From: a virus
Reading direction: 5' to 3' (one strand)
Length of the DNA stretch: 45,414 nucleotides
IMG/VR virus record: IMGVR_UViG_3300031351_000002
Coordinates: 1-45,414 of that record
Both the position numbers and the translations under genes were made by a program. This document shows, in pieces, positions 9,425-35,400 of the stretch. Position 1 is the stretch's first letter. The number at the start of each line of letters is the position of its first letter. The notes under the pieces are model-generated. The model saw only the letters and a list, made by a program, of their open reading frames with translations, searched no databases and was not told the DNA's origin.

Positions 9425-9628
9425 ATGTTAAAGCGAATGACGGACACAATCTATGGAATGCTCTATCGCAATGGTCGCTATGACGAAGGAAACTGGATGG
9501 TGCATTTCTTTGCCACCAAGCGAGAGAGGGAATCAGCCTACAAGCAGGCAGGTCAGCATCCAGGTATGGAACTGAGAAGATTTGAATTTAGGCTGGAGCA
9601 AGTAGTGGGGGAAGAGATTGACCACTGA
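9425..9628 (+). CDS. Hypothetical protein upstream of large terminase, 67 aa
   Basis: MLKRMTDTIYGMLYRNGRYD, EGNWMVHFFATKRERESAYKQ and a basic/acidic C-terminus. It overlaps the large terminase start by 11 bp, implying coupled translation. Function unknown; small genes at this place sometimes encode HNH or packaging accessories, but no such motif is present. Confidence 0.6.
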   Translation: MLKRMTDTIYGMLYRNGRYDEGNWMVHFFATKRERESAYKQAGQHPGMELRRFEFRLEQVVGEEIDH

Positions 9629-11027
9629 TATTGATGGCTCTCCTGTCACCAGAGTGCAGATAGAAGTCCCCAAGCCTCATTCTCTCAAGCAAGAGGAATT
9701 TGTCAGGGCTACCGAACTCAGGCAGGTAATCAAGGCAGGCAGACGGTTTGGCAAGACGGTAGGGGCAGCGATAAAGGCCCTGGAGGCGTTTCTGGGTGTC
9801 TGTCCCGCTTGCGGGGGAGAAGGCTGCTTGCGCTGCGAGATGACAGGTAAGGTAACACCAAAGCGAGTTCTCTACGCTGCGCCGACTTCAGAACAGGTAG
9901 GCAAGTTCTGGTACGAGATAACTTTAGCACTCAACAGTCCCGTTGAAAGTGGGTATCTTAAGAAAGATGAGACGGAGAAATTCATCGAGGTTCCGGGTAC
10001 GGAGCAGAGAATAAAAGCAAAGACAGCGTGGAATGCTAATACTCTCAGGGGCGACTATGCCGACCTGCTGCTACTTGAAGAGTTCCAGCTTATGAACGAG
10101 GATACCTGGGATGAGGTGGGCCAGCCGATGCTGCTTGATAACAACGGCACGGCGGTATTCGTTTATACCCCACCCTCTTTGAAATCAGAGGGAGTCAGCA
10201 AGGCGAGAGACCCCAGGCACGCCTCTAAGATGTACCAGAAGGCGCTGACCGATACGACTGGAAGGTGGAGAACATTCCACTTCACCAGCTTCGATAATCC
10301 GACTCTCAGCGCAGAAGCATTGAAAGAAATCGGGGAAGGAGATATGTCCCTCGATGCCTACCGCCGTGAAATACTGGCGGAGGATGATGAGATTGAAACA
10401 TCGTGGCTCGTCTACGGCAAGTTCGATGAGGCACTCTGCAAGATAAAAAGATTTGCCATACCTGAAACGTGGCCGATACGGTCTGGACACGACTTCGGCT
10501 CGGCCAATCCTGCTGCCCTTTTCGTTGCTGAAGTTAAATTGCCGATACCGGATGGCGCACCCAGGCATCTCAGGTATGGGGACTATGTGGCTTTTAGTGA
10601 GTATTCCCCGGGGGCTGGCTTCTCAACGGCACAGCACGTTGACGAGTTCAAGAGAATTACCAGAGGGCTTGATGTGCAGATGTCCACTGGTGGGAATGTG
10701 ACCACTGAAGATGAGATAAGGCAGGGGTATCAGAGTCAGGGCTGGATGATAACAGCGCCGACAATCACGAGGGTAAACGCCCAGATAGATAGAGTTCTCG
10801 GGATTATGGAGCAGAAAAAGCTCTATATCTTTGAAGATATGTTCAGGATACTGGCGCAGATAGCCAACTGTATGTGGGTTCTTGACGCCGAGAAACAGCC
10901 GACCAACAAGATAAGGGACGAAAGCAAGTATCATTTACTCGCCTGTCTGCGGTATCTGGGAACTATTCTCAGGATGGATACAGCCATAAGCGAGAAGCGG
11001 AAGTCAAAGCATTCAATGACTCTATGA
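9618..11027 (+). CDS. terL: Terminase large subunit, 469 aa
   Basis: The packaging motor and nuclease. The Walker A motif is AGRRFGKT (40-47), and the Walker B motif with its catalytic Glu is DLLLLEEF (149-156). The C-terminal nuclease begins at about residue 290 with SGHDFGSANP (first acidic residue), and further acids follow in TTEDEI and DESKYHLL. Odd feature: CPACGGEGCLRC (62-73), a CxxCxGxGCxxC zinc-knuckle pattern between Walker A and the next strand. A TTG start is used with GGGGGAAGAG ahead. The portal gene follows by 8 bp. Confidence 0.9.
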   Translation: MTTDIDGSPVTRVQIEVPKPHSLKQEEFVRATELRQVIKAGRRFGKTVGAAIKALEAFLGVCPACGGEGCLRCEMTGKVTPKRVLYAAPTSEQVGKFWYEITLALNSPVESGYLKKDETEKFIEVPGTEQRIKAKTAWNANTLRGDYADLLLLEEFQLMNEDTWDEVGQPMLLDNNGTAVFVYTPPSLKSEGVSKARDPRHASKMYQKALTDTTGRWRTFHFTSFDNPTLSAEALKEIGEGDMSLDAYRREILAEDDEIETSWLVYGKFDEALCKIKRFAIPETWPIRSGHDFGSANPAALFVAEVKLPIPDGAPRHLRYGDYVAFSEYSPGAGFSTAQHVDEFKRITRGLDVQMSTGGNVTTEDEIRQGYQSQGWMITAPTITRVNAQIDRVLGIMEQKKLYIFEDMFRILAQIANCMWVLDAEKQPTNKIRDESKYHLLACLRYLGTILRMDTAISEKRKSKHSMTL

Positions 11028-11035
11028 GGTAAGTT

Positions 11036-12751
11036 ATGCCGAATGACGACAGAAATTGGATACAAATTCTAAAAGACAAAGAGACGGAACTCAGTGACCT
11101 CAATAAGCGCCGTGATGGTGATAGGAAGCTGGTCACATCCGATGTTTATGAAATGCTCGATGCGAGCGATAAGAAAATTTCGGATATGATTAACGTCACT
11201 ATGAACCGTCTCAAGGTTTTCAAAGCCTATGTTGAGGCTTCCTTGAACAAAGCGGATGAAAAATTATACGTAACTTCCAACGATATAGCTCTCGATACAA
11301 AGGTGATTGAAGACATAATCTGGGGGATGTTCAGAACTGCGGATTATCGCCTGACAGGTCGTGGTGAATATACGCTGGACCCAGTTTTCGATGAGCAAGC
11401 CTGTATGCGAGGGGAGGGAGCAGCCCGTGTGACGCTTCAAATGGCTTCCGGCACTGGTGAAGATAAGAAAGAGGGACTGGACGTTAATATAACACCCTGG
11501 GATACACGGTTCATACTTTACGAGCAGGGCGTTAAAGGATTAGCTTACGCTGCTTACAAGCTAAAAAGCCCTAAAGCCGTGATTGAAAGCGAGCCGTGGG
11601 CTGTCGAGAAGGATTATAAAGCGCCTGGCAAGGCGGCTGAAAAAATCGACTTGTGGACGCCTAAAGAAAACATAATTTTCGTGGCTGGAAAGGAAGTTTT
11701 CAGGCAGCCACACGACTTTGGCGAGCCTCCAGCTTGCGTTCAGAAAGTTCCAATCGGGAGTATGCTTCAAGATGAAGACACTATACTATACCAGATGGAG
11801 TCTATCTTCTTCCTGGTTCGTGGTTTAATCAATGAATATAACAGGTGTCTGAGTATTTTACAGACCCTTAATTTGAAAGCCGTTAAAGTTGCTTTGCAGC
11901 AAGTTGTGACGGCTGGTGGAGAAGCAGCCGAATATAACGAGGTAGCTGCTATGGGCAGCAATACTCCAGTCGATGTGGCTGGAGCAATTCAAGAAGTTCC
12001 GTATGGCGAAGCCAGGAGGTCAATGATACTGGCCTTGCAGGAACTCAACAAGGCTCTTAATGATGGCACTTTATCCAGAATTATGCTGGGCGAACTTCCC
12101 GGGGAACTGTCCGCAGTGGCTCTGGTGCAGATAGAGCAGGGGCAGGGACAGGTGTTTATGCCGCGTCTGGGTATGCGCGGGCTGTTGAAGCAGCAAATAG
12201 CCCGAATGGGCATTAGCCAGCTTATGGCCATGGGTGGAAAGTTTGAGTTGGGTGCGCCGGGGCATAAAAGGACTTTCCAGTCTAAGGAACTGGAAGGCGA
12301 ATACGACATTGAGTTCAAGTATGCTAATAAGTCCCCTGAAACCGATTATGCCCGTTTGAATATGGGCATTACCTACAAAGAAGCCGATATGCTGGATGAG
12401 CTGACGATACTGCGAGAGGTTTTGAATCGAGATGACCCAGAGGGGGACCTGAATAAACTAAACCGCCAGCGACTGCGCAAACTCAGCCCCAATCTGGTGA
12501 TATACGATGGCTTAATGGCTCTTGCCGAATTGTATGAAGCGGGTGACGAGAGCGTTGCCGATGAAATAGATATTGTTGAAGCCGAACTGGGCGTAAGCCT
12601 TGAGGCGATGATGTCAGGTAATCAACTGCCCCAAATGCCAGAGAGTAAACCCAAACAGATGCCAACTATGCCTGCGATAACCGGTGGCGGTAAGAGTTCA
12701 GCCCAAAAAGCATTTGAATTAAAGGCTACTCCTGCTGAAGAAGGTGAATAA
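11036..12751 (+). CDS. Portal protein, 571 aa
   Basis: Twelve-fold head vertex through which DNA passes. The size and place (after large terminase, before the giant protein, scaffold and coat) are typical. The N-terminal half is helical then beta-rich, followed by a long helical stem/crown region (YNRCLSILQTLNLKAVKVAL, then ARRSMILALQELNKALNDGT) and a Pro/Met-rich disordered tail after about residue 525. Identification rests on order, size and general pattern, not on a short motif. Confidence 0.8.
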   Translation: MPNDDRNWIQILKDKETELSDLNKRRDGDRKLVTSDVYEMLDASDKKISDMINVTMNRLKVFKAYVEASLNKADEKLYVTSNDIALDTKVIEDIIWGMFRTADYRLTGRGEYTLDPVFDEQACMRGEGAARVTLQMASGTGEDKKEGLDVNITPWDTRFILYEQGVKGLAYAAYKLKSPKAVIESEPWAVEKDYKAPGKAAEKIDLWTPKENIIFVAGKEVFRQPHDFGEPPACVQKVPIGSMLQDEDTILYQMESIFFLVRGLINEYNRCLSILQTLNLKAVKVALQQVVTAGGEAAEYNEVAAMGSNTPVDVAGAIQEVPYGEARRSMILALQELNKALNDGTLSRIMLGELPGELSAVALVQIEQGQGQVFMPRLGMRGLLKQQIARMGISQLMAMGGKFELGAPGHKRTFQSKELEGEYDIEFKYANKSPETDYARLNMGITYKEADMLDELTILREVLNRDDPEGDLNKLNRQRLRKLSPNLVIYDGLMALAELYEAGDESVADEIDIVEAELGVSLEAMMSGNQLPQMPESKPKQMPTMPAITGGGKSSAQKAFELKATPAEEGE

Positions 12752-13072: not shown

Positions 13073-16000
13073 ATGCCTAGAGGCACAACGGACACCATAC
13101 AACAGAATATCGAAGATATGAGAAGCAAACTTAAAAAGCTGCGTGAGCCTTTAAGCCCCCGTATTACCAAAATCAAGACCAGACTGGCAGAGGGCAAGAC
13201 CGTGTTCTTGTCTCCCAGCACAGCTTCAGAAATCGGGCTGCCCGCCAAGTTTCCTTCTGACTGGACATTGAAAATAACTCCTGGTCATAACGGCGATGAG
13301 CCAGCATTTTCGTATCATTCACCTGAAGGAACGGAGTTTGCCGAGCAGGATATCAGGACTACGCCCGAAGGCGAATTTCTTTCTGCTTCTGAAATGGAAG
13401 AGATAAGAAGTGGGCGGTTTCAAGCCTATAATCCTGTGACTGATACATTCCAGCCCACTACAAGAGCATTTGTTGAAGCCAGAGAGGAAGCTGGGCTTAC
13501 CCCAGAGGAACTGCGAGAATTAGCAGGTGGTCGGTTTCAACCAACTCCAACCCCTTCAGCCGAAACAGAATTATCAGAGTTATTTCAAAGGGTTTATCCA
13601 GATTTTGATTTTGGCGATGAGACAGGCAGAGTAGTCCTCAGCACAATGATGCAGTGGGCAGATGAGGACCCGAATGCATTCTTGCAGGATATTTTAGCAA
13701 AGGGCAGAAATCCCGATACGGAGGCACTACTCAGGGCATTTGAAGCCCCGGACGAATTGATTGATGAAATATTTACTCCTGTCGTCCCAGAAGAAATCAG
13801 TATTCCCAAGACTGGAGTATTCCCCATTGACGGCATCAGGCAGCTAGTAACTATTGACCAGAATACGGGTATGGCTTATGACCGGACAGGGAATAATGTC
13901 GGCTCGCTTGACCCGATAAAGAGGGAGATTACCACTACACCACCCGAGGGCAAGGCAAAGGATATTTGGGATGCCGCCGTCCTGAGCGCAGCCAGTATGT
14001 GGCACAGGACGAAGCAGTATTTCGTTTCCAGTCTCCCCAATCTACTGTTTCGTGATATGACTGATTTTGAAAGGGAGATACAGGGAGACGAGTGGGCTGA
14101 TATAACCGATGCCCGCAATGAGGCATTGAGGGATAAATTCAGGCAGGCATACGCCAGAAATAATGCCGAGTTTGAAGAATGGGTAGAAAAGCGTCCTGAA
14201 TTACAGCCGAAAAGGGAATATCAGGAAGGGGTGATGGAACACCCCGAACTGCTTAAAGACCCTTATTATTATGCCTACGAGATAGCCAGTGCCGCACCAT
14301 TTATGGCTGGCGTGATGGCGACAGCTATTGTAACTACGGCGGTTACTGGAAATCCATTAGTAGGTTTGACGGCTGGTATGTTGGTGGCTACGCCTTCGCA
14401 GACACAGGATGTTTATGAGGCACTATTAGAGAACGGAGCTACCGAAGAGCAGGCGACAGTCATAGCCAACCCTATCGGTGCTGTTATATCGGCGGTTGAA
14501 GTTCTCGGTGACATACCCTTCTTCAAAGCAGTAGCCCCGCAGCTATTCAAGTTCTTCAGGAAAGAGGCAACTGAAGAGATAGCCAAGCAGACGATGAAAG
14601 GTTTGCTCAAGAGAGGAATTACTACTGCAACACAGGTGGAGATAGCCGAGACGCTGGAAGAGGTAGTTCAAGGCGCATTACAAAACGCTGCGGTTAAGAT
14701 AGTCAATGAGCATCAGGATATATTCGAGGGACTGGCCGATACCGCAATCAGGGCAGCCATAGCCTCTGCACCATTTGCGCTATTTGGCGGTGGTGCTTCC
14801 ATCAGGACAGATGTGATGGAGAAGTTTGAGGAAAGTATGCCCGAAGTGGTAGAGGGGATAAAGAAACTCGCCAAAGGAGAACGTGGTGCATTAGGATTTC
14901 TCGAAGAGAAACCCGGGGTCAAGGGTATCTTATCGCTAGATGAAATATCTCAACTGGAGACTAGAATATCTTTAGACCTCATACGGAAGGATGAAGCAGC
15001 GGAGATTGAGAGATTAACCGAGAAAATCAGGGAAGAGGGTCTAAAAGAGCCGATTACGATAATGGTCAGAGAAGATGGCTCCCGTGTAGTTTGGGACGGT
15101 ATGCATAGATTGATAGCGGCACAAACTCTGGGGATAAAGAATATCCCAGTTAAGTATATAGGTGAAGGGGTTACACCACCTGTTACCCCAGAGGTTACAA
15201 CAATACCCAAAGAAGGTAAGATAATACCCGAAAAGGGTAAGCCAGAAGCACCGCCAACAGAAGTAAAACCTGCACCAGAAATAGAAGCAGCCAAAACTCA
15301 AGCTCCACAGGTAACTAAAGAGATTGAAACAGTAATATCCGACCTCCAAGCGCAGGTAGAGAAAACCAGCGAGGAAGTCAAAGGCAAGCGTGGAGAAGCT
15401 GCCAGAATAAGCAGGGAAGCCCTTAAAGGGCTGGAAAGAGAAGTTGCCTACGCCCAGAAAACCCTTGAGACTTTCAGGGAACAGGTGAATGTTCCCGATG
15501 CTGTCAAGTTGCGACAAACAATCGTAGCGATGGCAAGATTTAAGGGTATCGGCAAAACTCAGTTGAGAGATGCCATTAAAAGTGTCGCTGGACAGAGACA
15601 TCTTCGTAATGTCGCCTCACCACAGCTTCTTGAAATCCTTGAGAAAGTCAGGGAAGCGAGACCATTAAAAATAGGTTACGAGAAAGTAGTAACTCTCAAG
15701 ACCGAAGCTAAAATCCAGTCGTTGAAAGAAAGCCTTATCTCCAGCCGCCAGATGACCGAGGAGATATATAACCACATCAAGGAACGCCTTAATTTAAGAA
15801 CCGACAGATACGAACACGCCCAGAAGTTCATTACCGAATCCGATGCCAAAGAACTAATACGGGCGATGAATGATGAGGTAGTTCTTGCCAGATGGGATAT
15901 CAAGGTTAAGGATGCTCTGGCTAAAAACCCCGCCATCAAAGGAGTAAGAGACGGTCTTAATGACAGGGGAATGGCGGGAACTGGTGTTGAGTTCAATGGC

Positions 16001-19000
16001 GAGCCGATAAAGGTAAGTCGTGGCACTGAACTTTACTCAATGCGCTACTATGTGCTCAACCTCCAGAAGAAGCTGGCTGCTCCAATCTATGATACATGGC
16101 AGAAGATAAATCAGGCTCACCTCGTTGCCAGAGACAGGCACAACCAGCAGTTGCGGAGGTTGCAGGATACCACGCCGAACTTCAAAGAGGTAGCCTCTGA
16201 TGAGAAAGCCTTAAAGAGAATTGAAGACTATATCGCCAGCAAGCACAATCTGGCTAAAATCAAAGCACCTGAGCTATCCGATGATGAAATGGCGATAGCC
16301 ACTGAGCTTGAGAGGGGATACTTTGAAGCACAGAACGATGTCAGGTTTATCAGGTTCGTCAACGCCTACGCCGAGAACGAGGGCGATATTGACCTTATAA
16401 ATAAAGAGATACCAAGCGCGCCGAAAAAGGCACTCAGAAGGGCTATTGATGTCTATGAGGGCAAGGGCGCAGACGAGCTAAGGAAGTTCACCGATACCCA
16501 GAAGTGGGGCGTTATTGAGAAGGGTTATGACCCTCGTTCCTTCATCAAACCGATACTCTACTTCCACGCACCGAGAGAAACTACCTTTGCCAAAGGTCTC
16601 CTGCGGACCAGAAGTGGCGTGGAGTATCAGGCTGATGAAACCAACATCATCCAGAGGTATTCCAGACACCAGAAGCAGTTGATAGCCTTGCAGGAGATGT
16701 CATCGCTGATAAGGGCTTTCGGCAGGCTTTATGCCGAACACGCTCACAAACTTGCTCCTTCAGCGCAGAGAGATGTTTCTAAAGTATTGAGTCGTGGTCT
16801 TAATGAGATGAAAGGCTACCGTGAAGATGCGGGGGCGATTATTCACGCCATAGAGCGTCTTTATGGTCAGGTGGCAGCAGTTGTCTTCTGGAGACCAGAC
16901 CTCGTAGCCAGAAACAAGTTCCAGAACTTTGCCTTCAATCCCGACTACTGGGCGGGAAGGTTCGCTGACCCACGGAATAAACCTATTTCAGAAGCAAGAC
17001 GCAGGTGGTTTGAAGTGTTTGTCAGTCAAGAGAGGGTATTTCAGTTTGAATATCTGCTCTATGGTGAGAAGCCACTACCGGGCTTCGGTCTGCTGACCAG
17101 ACTTGCGAGGAGAACAAGCCTTTATCCCTGGTCGGATAAGACAAACAGGGCTGAGGCTTTTATGGTCAGGATTAACCGAGTTGACAGGGCATTAGACGCT
17201 TATGATAAACACGGCGATGTCCAGAGATTGATTGACGATAGCGGTCTCAACGAGTTTGAACCGAGACAGCAGGCGGAAGCGTTAGAATATCTGTCAATGG
17301 ACTCCGTTGACTACGGCATAGATGGTATGGAGGCGGTATCGGGTAGGGAAGCGTTTGCTCTCTACATTACCCAGCAACTTGTCAACAATGTTCACTTCCT
17401 CTATGACAGGGCACAGAGAGCACCAGCCGAGATGGGAGCTACCGGCAAGACACTCGGCAATATCCTCGTCTTTAACCGCAGTTGGGGTGAGAGGTTTATC
17501 CTTCAGGGAAGGAAGCTAGACCCAAAAACTAAAGCAACTATAAAGGAACGGCTAAAAGCTGTTCAGGTCATAGTCGGCGTAGTAGTTGCTGGTCTTTTAG
17601 CTGGTGAAGTCTACAAGAAGATAACGGGTAAGGAGCATAATCCTTATAATCCGCTTAACATCATAACGTGGACACCTGGCGGTCTGGCTCTGGGTGTTAC
17701 CGAAGATATATCAAACACTATCTACCTGATAACTCAGGCGGTTCAGGGAGATAAAAGTGCTTTCGGCTCATTGCCTGGAGTAATCGCTGGCGTGGCTACA
17801 TTGACACTACCGTTCTACAAGAACGCTGTGCAGGCTCTTGATGCCGTAACCGATATGAAGAATGTTGATGTCTATGCCCTCCGCAAGATACGGGAGATGA
17901 TAGACGATGAATATGAGGTCAGGGGCGGGACTCACGAGGTAGAGAGAACCCTGCTTGAGAAATTGCAGAGGGCGATATTCAGCTTCAAAGACCAGCCCGT
18001 AACACCGCAGGAGAAGATAGACGAAGCGGAGACTCAACTGGGGTGGACGATTGATGTAGGCGATGTGCCCTTCACGCTGGAAGAGCCTGACATCTACAAT
18101 ATGCGGAAGCTCAACAGCGATATGTCAAGGATACTGGGGAATGTCAAGCCAGAGGATATTACCAGAGAGAATAAATATTCTGACCTTGCTATGGCTTGGA
18201 AGGAAAAAGAGGGCTACGAAGCTATCTGGAATACCCTCCCCAATAAGAAACTCTATGAGATAACCGAACTACCAGAAGAACTTGAGAAGTGGGCGAGCAG
18301 GCATAAGAGGGAGTTATCTTTAATCACCAAATATCAGAAACTTGAAGGGGCAGAAGCAAAGGAGTTTCTCGAAGAGCATCCTGAGCTAAAAGTCAATCCC
18401 GCAATCGAGTGGCTCAAGCAGTTCCCTATCGCCAATGCCAGATTAGCCCTCTGGGGTCAGGCCAAGATATACAGCAAGGAAGCCTATGACGAGTTCAACA
18501 GGCTGGTGAAAGAACTTGATGTTCCCGATGATGCCATACCAGAACTGACACTACCGCCGAAAGGCTCGGTGGAAAACTACTTCAAGTATCAGGAGACCGG
18601 CGGAGAACTGGGCTATAACTCGTGGGAAGTCCAGTTACTTATGGCACAGGACGATGATTTAAGGCAGTTCCTTGAGCGACAACCCATTGAAACGCCCGTC
18701 AGAAGCCTTGAGTTGAAGATTAAGGGCAGGGAACTGGAAGAGGATAGCCAGGAGTTCAGGGACAACGAAAGGCGCATAGAGGCCATTGAGAACGGTGCTC
18801 CTGACGAGATTGAGAGTAAATGGGTAGAGCGTGGTCATATAGTTGATGAGTTTACGGCGGGTAGCTCAGAGGCTATGGTCTGGTTGCTAGACCATAAAAA
18901 CGCTTTTGACTGGGCTATTGACAACGGGCTACTCACCGATGACGGTTCTGACTGGAATGAGGAAAGGCTACGCCTGAATGTTGAGAAAAACAAACTGGAA

Positions 19001-19696
19001 GAAGGCACATCTGAATTCGCTGAAGTTGATACCAAGCTCAAAGCCTTTGAAAGAGGACTGCCATCAGAGCAAATTGATAATTTCGCTATTTATAACAGCT
19101 TTCCAGAGGCAGGATATAGGCGGGAACGCTTCTTAATGGAGCATCCCGTGTTCGCTGAAGCTATGGGCTTGCAAGTCCCTGAGAAAGTCCCCTCCGAGAA
19201 ATACGACATACTGCTTGAGAAAGAGGACAGGACACCCGAAGACGAACTCCGAATGGACGCTTACAAAATCTATGTGCCTGATAAATATATTGAGGACTAT
19301 GTAACCTACCATACCAGCAAGAAACCCGATAACTGGGAAGAGAAAAACGGCACCGACCTCTACTATGCAGACGATTGGTGGATGATGGAGCACCAGGGCT
19401 TCTACAAGGAAGTCTATCTCGGCATACTGGGCAATCAGCGCAAAGACTATCGCACCGTGCCGACCAGAGAGGTATTCAACAAGTACCTCCGCTACCTTGA
19501 GCTGGAAGGGAAGAGGCGCAGTCAATTCAGGCTAGATAACCTCGACCTTGATAAATGGCTGGTCTTAAAATTCGGCTACACGCCGATTGAAGAGCAAGAA
19601 ATTAAGCCTGAGAAAAAAGAGCCAGAGAAGCCTGAAGGCACTATTGAAGAGTCACTGGAAGATATGAGAGAGAAACTATCCAGTCTAATGCGATAA
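13073..19696 (+). CDS. Giant virion/polyvalent protein, 2207 aa
   Basis: The largest gene, about 15 percent of the genome, in the MuF-like slot between portal and scaffold. Visible parts, in order: an N-terminal helix and Pro-rich segment; hydrophobic stretches at about 405-440 and 556-576; a ParB/sulfiredoxin-like domain at about 628-697 (KEPITIMVREDGSRVVWDGM, then HRLIAAQTLG); a Pro-rich linker and coiled coil to about 840; a long alpha-helical middle; hydrophobic segments near 1497-1516 and 1563-1580; and a C-terminal helical array repeating a motif like FLEEHPELK (also FLERQPIE, FLMEHPVFA). Phage polyvalent proteins with ParB-like domains are known to be injected with DNA. I infer an ejected internal protein that may also cross membrane. 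No MuF or lysozyme motif is visible. Confidence 0.75.
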   Translation: MPRGTTDTIQQNIEDMRSKLKKLREPLSPRITKIKTRLAEGKTVFLSPSTASEIGLPAKFPSDWTLKITPGHNGDEPAFSYHSPEGTEFAEQDIRTTPEGEFLSASEMEEIRSGRFQAYNPVTDTFQPTTRAFVEAREEAGLTPEELRELAGGRFQPTPTPSAETELSELFQRVYPDFDFGDETGRVVLSTMMQWADEDPNAFLQDILAKGRNPDTEALLRAFEAPDELIDEIFTPVVPEEISIPKTGVFPIDGIRQLVTIDQNTGMAYDRTGNNVGSLDPIKREITTTPPEGKAKDIWDAAVLSAASMWHRTKQYFVSSLPNLLFRDMTDFEREIQGDEWADITDARNEALRDKFRQAYARNNAEFEEWVEKRPELQPKREYQEGVMEHPELLKDPYYYAYEIASAAPFMAGVMATAIVTTAVTGNPLVGLTAGMLVATPSQTQDVYEALLENGATEEQATVIANPIGAVISAVEVLGDIPFFKAVAPQLFKFFRKEATEEIAKQTMKGLLKRGITTATQVEIAETLEEVVQGALQNAAVKIVNEHQDIFEGLADTAIRAAIASAPFALFGGGASIRTDVMEKFEESMPEVVEGIKKLAKGERGALGFLEEKPGVKGILSLDEISQLETRISLDLIRKDEAAEIERLTEKIREEGLKEPITIMVREDGSRVVWDGMHRLIAAQTLGIKNIPVKYIGEGVTPPVTPEVTTIPKEGKIIPEKGKPEAPPTEVKPAPEIEAAKTQAPQVTKEIETVISDLQAQVEKTSEEVKGKRGEAARISREALKGLEREVAYAQKTLETFREQVNVPDAVKLRQTIVAMARFKGIGKTQLRDAIKSVAGQRHLRNVASPQLLEILEKVREARPLKIGYEKVVTLKTEAKIQSLKESLISSRQMTEEIYNHIKERLNLRTDRYEHAQKFITESDAKELIRAMNDEVVLARWDIKVKDALAKNPAIKGVRDGLNDRGMAGTGVEFNGEPIKVSRGTELYSMRYYVLNLQKKLAAPIYDTWQKINQAHLVARDRHNQQLRRLQDTTPNFKEVASDEKALKRIEDYIASKHNLAKIKAPELSDDEMAIATELERGYFEAQNDVRFIRFVNAYAENEGDIDLINKEIPSAPKKALRRAIDVYEGKGADELRKFTDTQKWGVIEKGYDPRSFIKPILYFHAPRETTFAKGLLRTRSGVEYQADETNIIQRYSRHQKQLIALQEMSSLIRAFGRLYAEHAHKLAPSAQRDVSKVLSRGLNEMKGYREDAGAIIHAIERLYGQVAAVVFWRPDLVARNKFQNFAFNPDYWAGRFADPRNKPISEARRRWFEVFVSQERVFQFEYLLYGEKPLPGFGLLTRLARRTSLYPWSDKTNRAEAFMVRINRVDRALDAYDKHGDVQRLIDDSGLNEFEPRQQAEALEYLSMDSVDYGIDGMEAVSGREAFALYITQQLVNNVHFLYDRAQRAPAEMGATGKTLGNILVFNRSWGERFILQGRKLDPKTKATIKERLKAVQVIVGVVVAGLLAGEVYKKITGKEHNPYNPLNIITWTPGGLALGVTEDISNTIYLITQAVQGDKSAFGSLPGVIAGVATLTLPFYKNAVQALDAVTDMKNVDVYALRKIREMIDDEYEVRGGTHEVERTLLEKLQRAIFSFKDQPVTPQEKIDEAETQLGWTIDVGDVPFTLEEPDIYNMRKLNSDMSRILGNVKPEDITRENKYSDLAMAWKEKEGYEAIWNTLPNKKLYEITELPEELEKWASRHKRELSLITKYQKLEGAEAKEFLEEHPELKVNPAIEWLKQFPIANARLALWGQAKIYSKEAYDEFNRLVKELDVPDDAIPELTLPPKGSVENYFKYQETGGELGYNSWEVQLLMAQDDDLRQFLERQPIETPVRSLELKIKGRELEEDSQEFRDNERRIEAIENGAPDEIESKWVERGHIVDEFTAGSSEAMVWLLDHKNAFDWAIDNGLLTDDGSDWNEERLRLNVEKNKLEEGTSEFAEVDTKLKAFERGLPSEQIDNFAIYNSFPEAGYRRERFLMEHPVFAEAMGLQVPEKVPSEKYDILLEKEDRTPEDELRMDAYKIYVPDKYIEDYVTYHTSKKPDNWEEKNGTDLYYADDWWMMEHQGFYKEVYLGILGNQRKDYRTVPTREVFNKYLRYLELEGKRRSQFRLDNLDLDKWLVLKFGYTPIEEQEIKPEKKEPEKPEGTIEESLEDMREKLSSLMR

Positions 19697-20107: not shown

Positions 20108-20788
20108 ATGCCAGAACCTAAAGTCAAAGATACCCAGTCTGAAGAAGAAAAGGCAGCGCAGGTTGCCGCAGAACAGGCTAAGGCTCTTGCTGATGAAGCT
20201 GGTTCCGAGGAAGAAAAACCTACAGTCACCGAAGCCGAAGTCAAGGCTCGGGTTGAAAAGGCAGTTCAGGCCGCTCGAATAAAAGCTGGTAGGGACGATA
20301 AAGCATTTGAAGCAAAGGCTGAAGCACTCAAAAAAAGGGAAGAGTCCATCAGCCAGGCGGAAAGACGCAGGCTGGAAGAGGAAAGGGAAGCGGTGCGTGA
20401 TGATGCGGAGGCTTTAAAGACCCTGGATGCTAGAGAGGCCGTAAAAGCTCGGGAAAGGGAAGCCGAGAAAAAGGAAACTGAGCTGACGGCTCGTGAACTT
20501 GAGTTGAAAGCTGACGAAGATTCCAGAGCAGAGGAAAACCTGGTTAATGCCATAGCTGATGTTGCCACGGAATTTGAGTTGGATGCTACCAAGTTTGCGA
20601 AATCCTGCACAGACCTCAAGCTGACTTCCAGAGAGCAAGTCGAAAGCCTTGCTCGTACCATAACAGGTAAAGAGCCTGACCTTAAAAAGAAGCCTTTGAA
20701 ACTCGATTCCAGTAGAGGCGGAGGAGCAAGCCCGAGCGAACAAAAGAAACTAGAAAACCGATATCCAAGTATGTTTCCGAAAAAATAA
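20108..20788 (+). CDS. Capsid scaffolding protein, 226 aa
   Basis: Acidic, Ala/Glu/Lys-rich and almost wholly helical, with a long coiled coil (about 55-150) and a basic C-terminal tail (DLKKKPLKLD, then RYPSMFPKK). This composition, and the place 18 bp upstream of the coat gene, are diagnostic of scaffolds that guide procapsid assembly, the C-terminal tail being the usual coat-binding part. AAAAGGAG precedes the ATG. Confidence 0.85.
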   Translation: MPEPKVKDTQSEEEKAAQVAAEQAKALADEAGSEEEKPTVTEAEVKARVEKAVQAARIKAGRDDKAFEAKAEALKKREESISQAERRRLEEEREAVRDDAEALKTLDAREAVKAREREAEKKETELTARELELKADEDSRAEENLVNAIADVATEFELDATKFAKSCTDLKLTSREQVESLARTITGKEPDLKKKPLKLDSSRGGGASPSEQKKLENRYPSMFPKK

Positions 20789-20806: not shown

Positions 20807-21832
20807 ATGGCTACAGCCATTGGAAACACCTATCTAACTTTACTCGACTATGTTCAGCGTGAAAGCCCGGCTGGTGGGATTGACGAAATAATCGAAGTTC
20901 TCACCGCATCTAATCCTATCTTGGCGGATGCTAATATAATGGAGGGCAATTTACCGACTGGACATCGCAGCACGCAGCGGACGACCGACCCGACTGGTGC
21001 ATGGCGTCTGCTGAACTACGGCGTTGCGGCTGAGAAAAGCACCACGAAACAGATAACCGATACCTGTGGAATTCTGGAAGGTTATAGCAAACTGGACGTG
21101 GACGTCGCTTCTTTGAATGCCAATGAGGCCGCTTTGCGTGCTTCGGAAGACAACGCCTTTGTCACCGGGTTTAACGACACCGTAGCAACAGCGCTCTTTT
21201 ATTCCAACCAGGGAGTAAACCCAGAGCAAATTCACGGTCTGGCACCGCGATACCGCGATACTGACGGTGACTACGCCAGCCAAATAATCTCTGGTGGAGG
21301 CTCTGGCAGTGACAACACTTCCGTGTGGCTCGTTACCTGGGGACCGCAGACCTGCACGCTGATTTACCCGAAGGGTAGTCAGGCTGGTTTGCAAAGTGAA
21401 GATTTAGGGCGGCAGCTCATTGAAGATGCGGCTGGTGGCAACTACCTGGCCTGGGTTACCAGGTTTCAGTGGAAACTTGGTCTTACCCTGCGGGATTACC
21501 GGTATGTTATCCGCCTCTGCAACATTGATGTTTCAGACCTGACTTCAGATGCTGCCTCCGGCGCCGACCTGATGGACAAGATGATTGACGCTTACTATGC
21601 CCGCCCAAGTGTTGACCTGGGCAATATGGCGAAGACGTTCTTCTACTGCAACAAGACCGTTGCCAAGTTCCTGCACAAGCAGGCTCAGAACAAGAGCAAT
21701 GTCAATCTGACCATCGACTCACCCGCCGGCAAACCGGTAGTCAGCTTCCTGGATGCCCCGGTTCATGTGTGCGACAACATCTCATCTGCGGAAGCAACAG
21801 TCAGCACTACTCCTGGGTCTGTACTGGCCTAG
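20807..21832 (+). CDS. Major capsid protein, HK97-like fold, epsilon15 gp7-type, 341 aa
   Basis: The segment STTKQITDTCGILEGYSKLD, followed by LNANEAALRASEDNAFVTGF, resembles the coat proteins of epsilon15-like podoviruses (GP7 family) as I remember them. The N-terminus has no obvious delta domain, consistent with the separate scaffold upstream. The gene has the best ribosome binding site of the region (GAGGAGG) as expected for the most abundant protein, and follows the scaffold by 18 bp. Confidence in coat function is high, in the exact family moderate. Confidence 0.88.
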   Translation: MATAIGNTYLTLLDYVQRESPAGGIDEIIEVLTASNPILADANIMEGNLPTGHRSTQRTTDPTGAWRLLNYGVAAEKSTTKQITDTCGILEGYSKLDVDVASLNANEAALRASEDNAFVTGFNDTVATALFYSNQGVNPEQIHGLAPRYRDTDGDYASQIISGGGSGSDNTSVWLVTWGPQTCTLIYPKGSQAGLQSEDLGRQLIEDAAGGNYLAWVTRFQWKLGLTLRDYRYVIRLCNIDVSDLTSDAASGADLMDKMIDAYYARPSVDLGNMAKTFFYCNKTVAKFLHKQAQNKSNVNLTIDSPAGKPVVSFLDAPVHVCDNISSAEATVSTTPGSVLA

Positions 21833-33747: not shown

Positions 33748-33780
33748 CCCCTCTCCTTCAAAGGAGAGGGGCTTTCTTTT
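33748..33780 (+). terminator. Late operon terminator
   Basis: CCCCTCTCCT (33748-33757) and AGGAGAGGGG (33762-33771) pair perfectly with loop TCAA, followed by CTTTCTTTT. A textbook rho-independent terminator for the rightward late transcript. Its T tract runs into the stop codon of the convergent integrase gene. Confidence 0.9.
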
Positions 33781-34720
33781 ATTTCAGGCGAAGGTTATCA
33801 ACAGGACTCGCCATCTTGTGAGCTTGAACCATCTCATACAGACCGAGGATACCCACATACCTTCTGGTCATTCCCAAATCAGAATGCCCCAGGATATATT
33901 GCAGGGTAAAGGTGTCCCCGCCGTTCCTCAAGTAATTGATGGCGAAGGTATGCCTGAAAGTGTGAGGTCCCTGCTTAACATTGGTTATTCCAGCCCTTTG
34001 GCACAGCCTTTTTACCATTATCTGGATAGCTGAAGTTGCCATAGGTCTCCTCTCCTCAGTAACCCATAGACAGGAGTGGCTATCCTTCCGCGAGAGAAGA
34101 TACTTCAGCAATGCCCTCTGAGCTGTCTTACCGATTCTGACGACTCTCTCTTTAGCCCCTTTACCCATTACCTTGATTAGCTCACCCTCAAAATTGACAT
34201 CCTGGAGCTGGATGTTTGTCAACTCTGCCAGTCTTAGTCCAGTGTCAAGGAATACTAAAATGATGGCTCTGTTGCGTAAGTCCAGGAAGCGATTGCCGGA
34301 GCATAGTAGCAGCAGGTTATCAATATCTCCCCTTGAGAAAGGCTTAATGATTAGGCGGGGCACTTTTGGAGGCTTGATATTATGCATCGGGTTTTCAGGT
34401 ATAGCACCTTCATTGACCAGCCAGTTGAAAAATGCCCTCAAGCACTTGTAGTGGTTATGGACTGAAGATGGCCTTAGCCCTCTCTCCTGTAAGGATAAAA
34501 GAAACATTCTTACTTGAGCGGTTGAAAGCTCATCACCGAGTCCTAGGAAGCCACGCAAAACCAGTGAATAAAGAGCGATAGTCTTTTCTGACTTCCCCTC
34601 AACCTTGCAGGAAATTAAGTAATTTCTAGCCAGTTGGCCAAGGCCGTTTTGAGGAGTAAAGTGGTCAAGGCCAGCTATGCCTCCAATGTGAAGGCTGCTG
34701 ATAGTAAAGTGGTCTAGCAT
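33779..34720 (-). CDS. int: Tyrosine integrase, 313 aa
   Basis: The catalytic set is visible: Arg in TGLRLAELTNIQLQDV, Lys in GKGAKERVVRIG, HTFRHTFAINYLRNGG (His-x-x-Arg), LGHSD and the nucleophile Tyr in TRRYVG. The N-terminal SAM-like core-binding domain spans about residues 25-110. The length is somewhat shorter than lambda Int. Leftward, 38 bp downstream of the repressor gene, so the two are probably co-transcribed. No attachment site could be assigned; the tRNA-Gln at 41868 is one candidate. Confidence 0.93.
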   Translation of the reverse strand: MLDHFTISSLHIGGIAGLDHFTPQNGLGQLARNYLISCKVEGKSEKTIALYSLVLRGFLGLGDELSTAQVRMFLLSLQERGLRPSSVHNHYKCLRAFFNWLVNEGAIPENPMHNIKPPKVPRLIIKPFSRGDIDNLLLLCSGNRFLDLRNRAIILVFLDTGLRLAELTNIQLQDVNFEGELIKVMGKGAKERVVRIGKTAQRALLKYLLSRKDSHSCLWVTEERRPMATSAIQIMVKRLCQRAGITNVKQGPHTFRHTFAINYLRNGGDTFTLQYILGHSDLGMTRRYVGILGLYEMVQAHKMASPVDNLRLK

Positions 34721-34758
34721 TATTCATTTTGGCTACCCAACGGCGATTTTAGCTTCAG

Positions 34759-35400
34759 TTATACAATTTCTAATTGAATCACCGGAGCTGCCACCTGATA
34801 CCCTTCAAATTTTACGCTACCCTCATTAGTCTCCAGCCACAATTCCTCGGCAACTCTGCGTAGTCGGCCTATTCTCAGACCATCAGGCATTAAACAGGCA
34901 ATGATGTCTCCAGCCTCTATATCACGGTCTCGGTCAATAATTATAATATCTCCGTCATGTATAGCTGGCTCTAAGCACTGCCCCCTCACAGGATAAGCCT
35001 CAATGTTCTTACCCGCCCCTTTGTTTCTTTCTAAGTACACATAATCTATTACTTCCATTGCTCCTCCTGCACGGAAGGGAAAGTCTGCATAGACAGGTAC
35101 AGAAATTGGTTGGGCTAACCTGAGACGCTCCAGAATCTCCTCTGAGGTCTCTTTCGGCAAGGACTGATGCTTCCCCTGCATCTCCTGGGTTAATCCATCA
35201 GGTAGCATCCCTAGCGCTCTGGCTATCCTTGCAAAGTTATGTTGTCGGACACCCTTAAAGCCGCCACTGCAAACACGGGAGATATAGGAATCTGATAAAC
35301 CAGACCTCTTAGCCAGTTCAGCCTGTCTGATACCCCGCTCATCTAAAATCTTTTTTAACCTGATACCCCAGTTCATAGTTTTATCCATAGTTTCATTCAT
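34759..35400 (-). CDS. CI-like phage repressor with degenerate S24 domain, 213 aa
   Basis: The N-terminal helix-turn-helix spans about residues 12-65 (RQAELAKRSGLSDSYISRVC). The C-terminal LexA/S24 fold starts near residue 98, with an Ala-Gly at 111-112 where relatives are cut, then PVRGQCLEPAIHDGDIIIID. The usual catalytic Ser is Cys142, and the usual Lys (Val-Lys-Arg-Leu in LexA) is Gly178 (RIGRL). Dimerisation should persist, but RecA-stimulated self-cleavage is probably lost or altered. The predicted start of transcription is at the ATG, as in lambda cI. It represses PL and PR and may activate itself. Confidence 0.88.
   Translation of the reverse strand: MNETMDKTMNWGIRLKKILDERGIRQAELAKRSGLSDSYISRVCSGGFKGVRQHNFARIARALGMLPDGLTQEMQGKHQSLPKETSEEILERLRLAQPISVPVYADFPFRAGGAMEVIDYVYLERNKGAGKNIEAYPVRGQCLEPAIHDGDIIIIDRDRDIEAGDIIACLMPDGLRIGRLRRVAEELWLETNEGSVKFEGYQVAAPVIQLEIV

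Follow-up and report, generated by a model that had tools for sequence, protein, structure and literature searches.

Results

A giant open reading frame between the portal and scaffold genes

The window analysed here comprises an entire uncultivated virus record (IMGVR_UViG_3300031351_000002; 45,414 bases), in which no direct terminal repeat of at least 16 bases was found, and the subject of this study is a giant open reading frame (ORF) of 2207 amino acids (aa) that it contains. As the original prediction had stated, the frame is open without an internal stop and takes up about 15% of the genome (6624 of 45,414 bases, 14.6%); no other ORF in the window exceeds 571 aa. The gene order is terminase, portal, giant, scaffold and capsid (Table 1), in agreement with the predicted position between portal and scaffold, the names of these two neighbours being given by position, size and composition. 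The 571-aa probable portal protein gave no named library match and had no homologue in isolate phages at E 1e-3, and the 226-aa probable scaffold protein gave no library match. Relatives of the major capsid protein were found in 91 phage records, BPP-1 and phiV10 among them. BPP-1 and phiV10 are short-tailed phages, and the window phage would also have a short tail, judging from its capsid family and from the absence of an evident tape-measure ORF. The position of the giant had been called the MuF slot in the original prediction; the position stands, whereas a MuF domain was found neither with Pfam at E up to 1 nor in PHROGs, and on this sequence evidence the giant is not a MuF homologue.

Conserved ends and exchanged middles

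No homologue of the giant was found in isolate phages at E 1e-5; searches with the giant itself led to loci L002, L004, L005 and, at a greater distance, L003. Viral contigs were scanned with an alignment of the portal proteins of the window, L002, L003 and L004; this identified 34 loci, and with the window and L005 a total of 36 were examined. A single ORF of 1412 to 2951 aa was present in 26 of these as the first or second ORF of at least 90 aa past the portal; L028 has its giant as two abutting ORFs (1000 and 1163 aa), and the slot cannot be judged in nine contigs, which stop too soon. Thus, 26 of the 27 loci with enough sequence have a single giant. Five of the 26 (the window, L005, L004, L039, which is the same as L003, and L050, which is the same as L002) had been reached through the giant or are duplicates, and 21 were found independently of it. 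The giant was the largest ORF in each of six relatives that could be read nearly whole, and no other ORF in them exceeded 867 aa.

Profiles of four regions (N1, N2, C1 and C2) were seeded on the window giant and compared with 28 giant ORFs, so that their E-values relate to that small set. The terminal regions N1, C1 and C2 recur in most of these ORFs (Table 1). The hydrophobic region N2, which gave weak VIA matches to membrane proteins (Z of about 5), has a second type in other giants. The middles were sorted into types by reading of an all-against-all BLAST comparison: core A (window, L002, L004, L005), core B (L019, L023, L024, L029, L041, L045, L047), core C (L003, L020, L026, L028, L030, L037), core D (L027, L031, L032, with L052–L054 added later), core E (L035, L042–L044) and core F (L022), with L038 and L049 outside the types. 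Little or no BLAST similarity was seen between types, and short stretches are common across them; core A hardly matched the cores of other giants except for approximately 150–250 aa at its start in L038. The giants with core A are 52–58% identical to that of the window, compared with 24–39% for their portals.

The C-terminal array of FL-x-EHP-like repeats that had been predicted was borne out. The motif, written from the description in the prediction itself, matched five times in aa 1691–2190 and nowhere else in the protein, against 0.12 matches in shuffled sequences (0 of 2000 reached five), and the array was modelled as an all-helical solenoid with a pLDDT (predicted local distance difference test) mostly of 80–95. 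The predicted coiled coil is visible only as long modelled helices (aa 5–39 and 735–759).

An exchangeable ParB/sulfiredoxin-fold domain

The ParB/sulfiredoxin-like fold named in the original prediction lies between the N-terminal part and the core, at aa 615–701. From the single sequence the evidence was weak (Pfam ParB_N, E 0.08, below the cut-off; PHROGs, E 1e-5; NCBIfam SbnI, E 2e-4). A profile of six sequences matched SbnI (E 2e-6), ParB (E 9e-5) and sulfiredoxin (E 0.001). In an AlphaFold model of aa 1–760 (mean pLDDT 66.8), the domain scored mostly 85–92; Foldseek returned a probability of 1.00 against sulfiredoxin, SbnI, free serine kinase, ParB, Noc and KorB, with no E-value below 0.001, and VIA gave Z scores of 10.6 for sulfiredoxin (81 residues, 3.3 Å) and 9.9 for ParB. 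The profile and the model with its structural searches together make the assignment of the fold firm.

Across the six sequences, which go down to 53% identity, 33 of 81 positions are invariant, including the D, G, H and R of a DG-x-HR motif. This motif aligns with DG-x-HR of SbnI, the arginine of the superfamily pocket being kept. In sulfiredoxin, the catalytic cysteine stands before the HR pair; it is absent from all six sequences, which have methionine or isoleucine at that place, and the window giant is without cysteine. The DdrB-ParB family model did not match the window giant (Pfam, E up to 1, with ParB_N the sole report), and by these comparisons the domain is nearer to SbnI, ParB and sulfiredoxin than to DdrB-ParB.

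A scan of viral contigs with the ParB domains of the window and L027 gave 41 pattern stretches and six confirmed loci (L027, L052, L053, L054, L055 and L056), with the domain in all six located within a giant, between the N-terminal part and the core. The L055 protein is identical to that of L054, which leaves five distinct ParB-bearing giants besides that of the window. Their domains are 53–73% identical to the window domain and occupy the same place next to different middles, namely core D in L027, L052, L053 and L054/L055, core C in L056 and core A in the window. A profile search found the domain in seven of 33 giant ORFs, L055 included, and in none of the others, L002, L003, L004 and L005 among them; in the set collected without reference to ParB, it is present in two of 28 (the window and L027).

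At the place of ParB, the giants of L041 and L044 have an ART-PolyVal domain (Pfam E-values of 1e-6 and 9e-6, narrowly missing the curated cut-off). The two copies are 77% identical over 159 aa, and the cores that accompany them were classed B and E, respectively. Pfam searches of the slot regions of 20 giants gave, of interest, only ParB (L027, E 0.03) and these ART domains. A small recurring module with no Pfam match was also noted near the cargo position (L002 aa 709–810, L005 aa 642–771, first ORF of L028 aa 814–917, L003 aa 1075–1156). An HExxH motif occurs in three of the 33 giant ORFs (L042 at aa 733, L043 at aa 917 and L037 at aa 1200) and is absent from the window giant; a metallopeptidase cargo is possible in these three.

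Candidate membrane segments

Several hydrophobic segments had been predicted for the giant. Their number does not stand out (five peaks, against 3.3 with a maximum of 8 in shuffled sequences), whereas the position of the strongest is conserved in core types A, B, E and F. In each of the 16 giants tested, the most hydrophobic window in the stretch from aa 700 to C1 is placed 134–161 aa ahead of C1 (shuffles, 5–9% per protein). These 16, out of 25 giants bearing C1, are those with a C1 match starting by model position 25 (incomplete L005, position 1), the start being extrapolated by 10–22 aa in five; they cover core types A, B, E and F and, given that cores within a type are homologous, represent four independent types at best. 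By hydropathy, the giant would have the layout of an N-terminal part, a membrane region, a soluble middle, a membrane segment and a C-terminal part.

Depletion of cysteine

The window giant contains no cysteine in its 2207 residues. Taken together, 32 giant ORFs have 40 cysteines in 66,501 residues (0.06%), and 17 of them have none. The corresponding figures are 0.44% for 23 portal proteins and 0.74% for 18 capsid proteins encoded in loci of this kind, and 0.95% for 15 further late ORFs in the window. The chance of finding no cysteine in the window giant is 7e-10 at a frequency of 0.95% and 6e-5 at the 0.44% of the portals. No other residue in the giants falls below 0.77 of its portal frequency.

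Cysteine is also missing from proteins that are proven to be ejected: gp15 and gp16 of T7 have none in 2065 residues, and gp7, gp20 and gp16 of P22 have none in 1309. For N4, gp50 (3008 of approximately 3500 aa), gp51 and gp52 together have none in 3802 residues, gp51 and gp52 being described as ejection proteins in the accessible text of PMC12633501. Other proteins of the same regions contain 0.60% (T7), 0.85% (P22) and 0.59% (N4), in a tally that places N4 gp51 and gp52 among the other proteins and T7 gp13, with its three cysteines, among the ejected ones. Given that T7 gp9, P22 gp5 and N4 gp56, which are other virion proteins, also have no or one cysteine, the sign is a statistical one. The near-absence of cysteine is a possible general mark of ejected proteins.

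Features of the locus, lifestyle and host

Table 1 Features of the giant and of the genes around it. Positions are those of the window.
Feature	Position	Strand	Basis
Terminase large subunit	9618..11027	+	PHROGs E 1e-28
Probable portal protein, 571 aa, upstream neighbour of the giant	11036..12751	+	Position, size, composition; 34 relatives in viral contigs
Giant ORF, 2207 aa (probable ejection-type polyvalent protein)	13073..19696	+	Stop-free frame; giants in the same slot of related phages
N1, conserved N-terminal region, aa 17–236	13121..13780	+	Profile match in 26/28 giant ORFs
N2, helical hydrophobic region, candidate membrane segment I, aa 291–579	13943..14809	+	Profile in 7/28 giant ORFs; helices in model
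ParB/sulfiredoxin-fold domain with DG-M-HR motif, exchangeable cargo, aa 615–701	14915..15175	+	Model, fold search, six-sequence profile; also in L027, L052, L053, L054/L055, L056
Core type A, aa 740–1631	15290..17965	+	52–58% identical in L002, L004, L005
Candidate membrane segment II, aa 1496–1514, Kyte–Doolittle score 1.97	17558..17614	+	Strongest hydrophobic window, 16/16 giants tested
C1/C2, conserved C-terminal helical repeat region, aa 1632–2178	17966..19606	+	C1 in 25/28, C2 in 24/28 giant ORFs; repeats; solenoid model
Probable scaffold protein, 226 aa, charged, helical	20108..20788	+	Position, size, composition
Major capsid protein, GP7 family (BPP-1/phiV10 group)	20807..21832	+	Pfam GP7 E 3e-121

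An integrase gene (33779–34720) and a gene for a CI/UmuD-like repressor lie within 33779–35400 on the minus strand, and by these two genes the phage looks temperate. A single tRNA-Gln (CTG) gene is located at 41868–41943.

When genome contigs were scanned with the C-terminal repeat, 15 pattern stretches and one relative were obtained, the relative lying on a 7.3-kb contig in a Dehalococcoidales metagenome-assembled genome (MAG). The portal profile matched 26 of 393 genomes of the class to which that MAG belongs, a count that comes from this one class and from short MAG contigs that may be misbinned; four matches in three genomes had E-values below 1e-100 and one had 5e-28, the rest being weak and mostly short. 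The C-terminal repeat was matched in all four genomes queried, in one of them only at 7e-4. A prophage search with core A in genome contigs gave 18 pattern stretches and no relative. A host group around the Dehalococcoidales bin is possible from these matches.

Discussion

Interpretation

We interpret the giant as a probable ejection protein, carried inside the virion of a short-tailed phage, that belongs to the class known as polyvalent proteins and has an injected ParB-fold effector. The original prediction, a packaged and injected conduit that carries an effector domain, has the best support among the readings considered, favoured by the shared ends and swapped middles of the giants, the exchange of ParB and ART, the homology of core B to the BPP-1 giant described below, a candidate membrane layout resembling that of T7 gp16 and the depletion of cysteine; from these we infer packaging and the conduit, as well as ejection, topology and ParB activity.

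The giant would be made from the portal–scaffold operon and packed around or above the portal. At infection it would be threaded through the portal and tail, presumably unfolded, in keeping with the lack of cysteine that it shares with ejection proteins of T7, P22 and N4, and would enter the host cell before the DNA. Its two candidate membrane segments (aa ~291–579, before the cargo, and near aa 1496) may span the host membrane, in the way suggested for T7 gp16, with the conserved N- and C-terminal parts staying outside as a conduit or anchor and the polymorphic middle forming a cytoplasmic hub. The ParB domain of the window giant, placed right after membrane segment I, would most likely be an injected nucleotide-dependent effector that acts in the first minutes of infection.

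A broader proposal is offered tentatively. One protein may be both ejectosome and delivery platform, its frame made up of the constant N- and C-terminal parts and the two membrane segments, with the part between the membrane segments reaching the cytoplasm and with ParB, ART and whole cores swapped in the manner of polymorphic-toxin payloads; the ParB variant might then be a dedicated injected effector that uses nucleotides and is so far seen only in such giants, and low cysteine might mark ejected proteins in any phage genome. How short-tailed phages bring their DNA and first-strike proteins through the envelope has been worked out in a few model phages. In a large uncultivated group whose phages join conduit and cargo in a single modular protein, both the positions of the cargo and its host targets would become legible in the sequence, and depletion of cysteine would offer a simple, testable predictor of ejected proteins. 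Should the link to a Dehalococcoidales-type host hold, it would offer an entry to the phages of hard-to-grow organisms.

Several observations weigh against this interpretation. In one MAG (G123), two strong relatives of the portal are not followed by a giant, which counts against universality. The core was modelled poorly (pLDDT of ~25–60 over much of aa 1130–1360 and 1440–1680), and the model of aa 1010–2207 had no match with E below 0.001 in PDB or BFVD for the core or the C-terminus, an absence that is no evidence of a new fold. Hydrophobic peaks are no more numerous than in shuffled sequences, the nine C1-bearing giants outside the spacing test (types C and D) are without fixed spacing in their peak lists, and the apparent gp16-like topology comes from hydropathy. 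T7 gp13 has three cysteines and T7 gp14 has one, and low cysteine could also fit a tape-measure protein or another helical virion protein. No link between core A and the core of the BPP-1 giant was detected (HHalign, 0.1%), and the tie to known polyvalent proteins therefore rests on the sister giants.

Alternative explanations

The alternative that survives best retains the ejection protein and takes its ParB domain to be vestigial or purely structural, and inactive. The presence of the domain in only two of 28 giant ORFs in the set assembled independently of ParB speaks for such a state, which we nevertheless consider unlikely in view of the 33 invariant positions, those of DG-x-HR included, and of the movement of the module between different cores. 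It is also improbable that the giant is a MuF-type minor head protein retained in the capsid, with ParB as a structural or DNA-binding clip during packaging. Its position after the portal would suit this role, as would the binding of nucleotides and DNA by ParB folds, but no MuF domain was detected at E up to 1, relatives have an effector-type ART in the position that ParB takes here, and the near-absence of cysteine matches ejected proteins.

We see a slim chance that the giant is a tape-measure protein, acting as the ruler for a long tail and being displaced into the host. Portal and scaffold genes flank the gene, which is not in the tail module, the capsid protein groups with those of the short-tailed BPP-1 and phiV10, the giants vary in length from 1400 to 2950 aa with swapped middles, and core B is homologous to a podovirus giant; these points stand against the mostly helical character, hydrophobic segments and low cysteine of the giant and a few weak BFVD matches that are tape measures (E 0.29 and above). 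Despite its ParB fold, the domain can hardly be a partition component of a prophage-plasmid, being embedded in a giant of the late virion module and, at 80–90 aa, stopping before the DNA-binding part that follows this region in partition ParB proteins, in a window that has the integrase (33779–34720) and in which no ParA was seen among the ORFs searched, a portion of the total.

Comparison with known systems

Phage polyvalent proteins with ParB-like and ART domains and predicted injection have been described (Iyer et al. 2017, PMC5512222). As far as the accessible part of that source goes, they are like the giant in their very large size, multiple domains, location of the gene in the virion module and exchangeable effector domains (ParB-like, ART), and the giant has the corresponding traits of a large multidomain protein among virion genes with effector domains that recombine between homologues. 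Unlike the proteins described there, it has fixed N- and C-terminal ends around a swapped middle, a place in the portal–scaffold slot and a ParB domain nearer to SbnI, ParB and sulfiredoxin. No MPTase, ArdC, DdrB-ParB, MuF or LPD model matched the window giant (Pfam, E up to 1).

Bbp10 of BPP-1 (2052 aa) carries LPD22 and PBECR1, a nuclease-type domain (aa 643–729), and gp039 of Caulobacter phage RapA (2039 aa) carries LPD22 and ART (aa 612–777), with these effectors at the same depth as ParB in the window giant. Both proteins resemble the giant in size and in the near-absence of cysteine (one and none, respectively), and their phages have homologous capsid proteins; they differ in that they carry LPD22 and that their gene closes the tail module instead of following the portal. 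With HHalign, core B matched the C-terminal part of the BPP-1 giant family at 99.9% (E 3e-31, 501 columns; reversed control, ≤0.7%) and core D matched Bbp10 more weakly (64.6%, E 6e-5), and a whole-profile comparison of core A plus the C-terminus with the BPP-1 giant gave nothing. Among the 28 pairings of eight core profiles, five exceeded 50% (B–G, B–Bbp10, G–Bbp10, E–C and D–Bbp10), the other 23 being at most 1.7% and reversed controls at most 0.7%. Literature searches, with poor coverage of subscription papers, found no giant portal-slot protein, nothing on point about cysteine in ejection proteins and no virion evidence for the giant in work on Bbp10 or its relatives, including the accessible portions of PMC3974807 and PMC8951688; PMC10386132 and PMC12373910 likewise contributed nothing decisive.

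T7 gp16 has membrane regions at 243–410 and 1119–1290, with the part between them placed in the cytoplasm, according to the accessible text of PMC8954989. It is like the giant in being large, helical and free of cysteine, and its two membrane regions around a large soluble part resemble the layout suggested for the giant by hydropathy. It is unlike the giant in that it has a peptidoglycan hydrolase, works with gp14 and gp15 and is encoded among other internal-protein genes, and no sequence link between the two was found.

The N4 virion RNA polymerase, as described in the accessible text of PMC12633501, is a single giant ejected protein with an enzymatic domain that is membrane-anchored after ejection, much as we propose for the giant, and likewise has no cysteine in 3008 residues. 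N4 differs, by the same account, in that its enzyme is an RNA polymerase and that separate proteins, gp51 and gp52, provide the channel.

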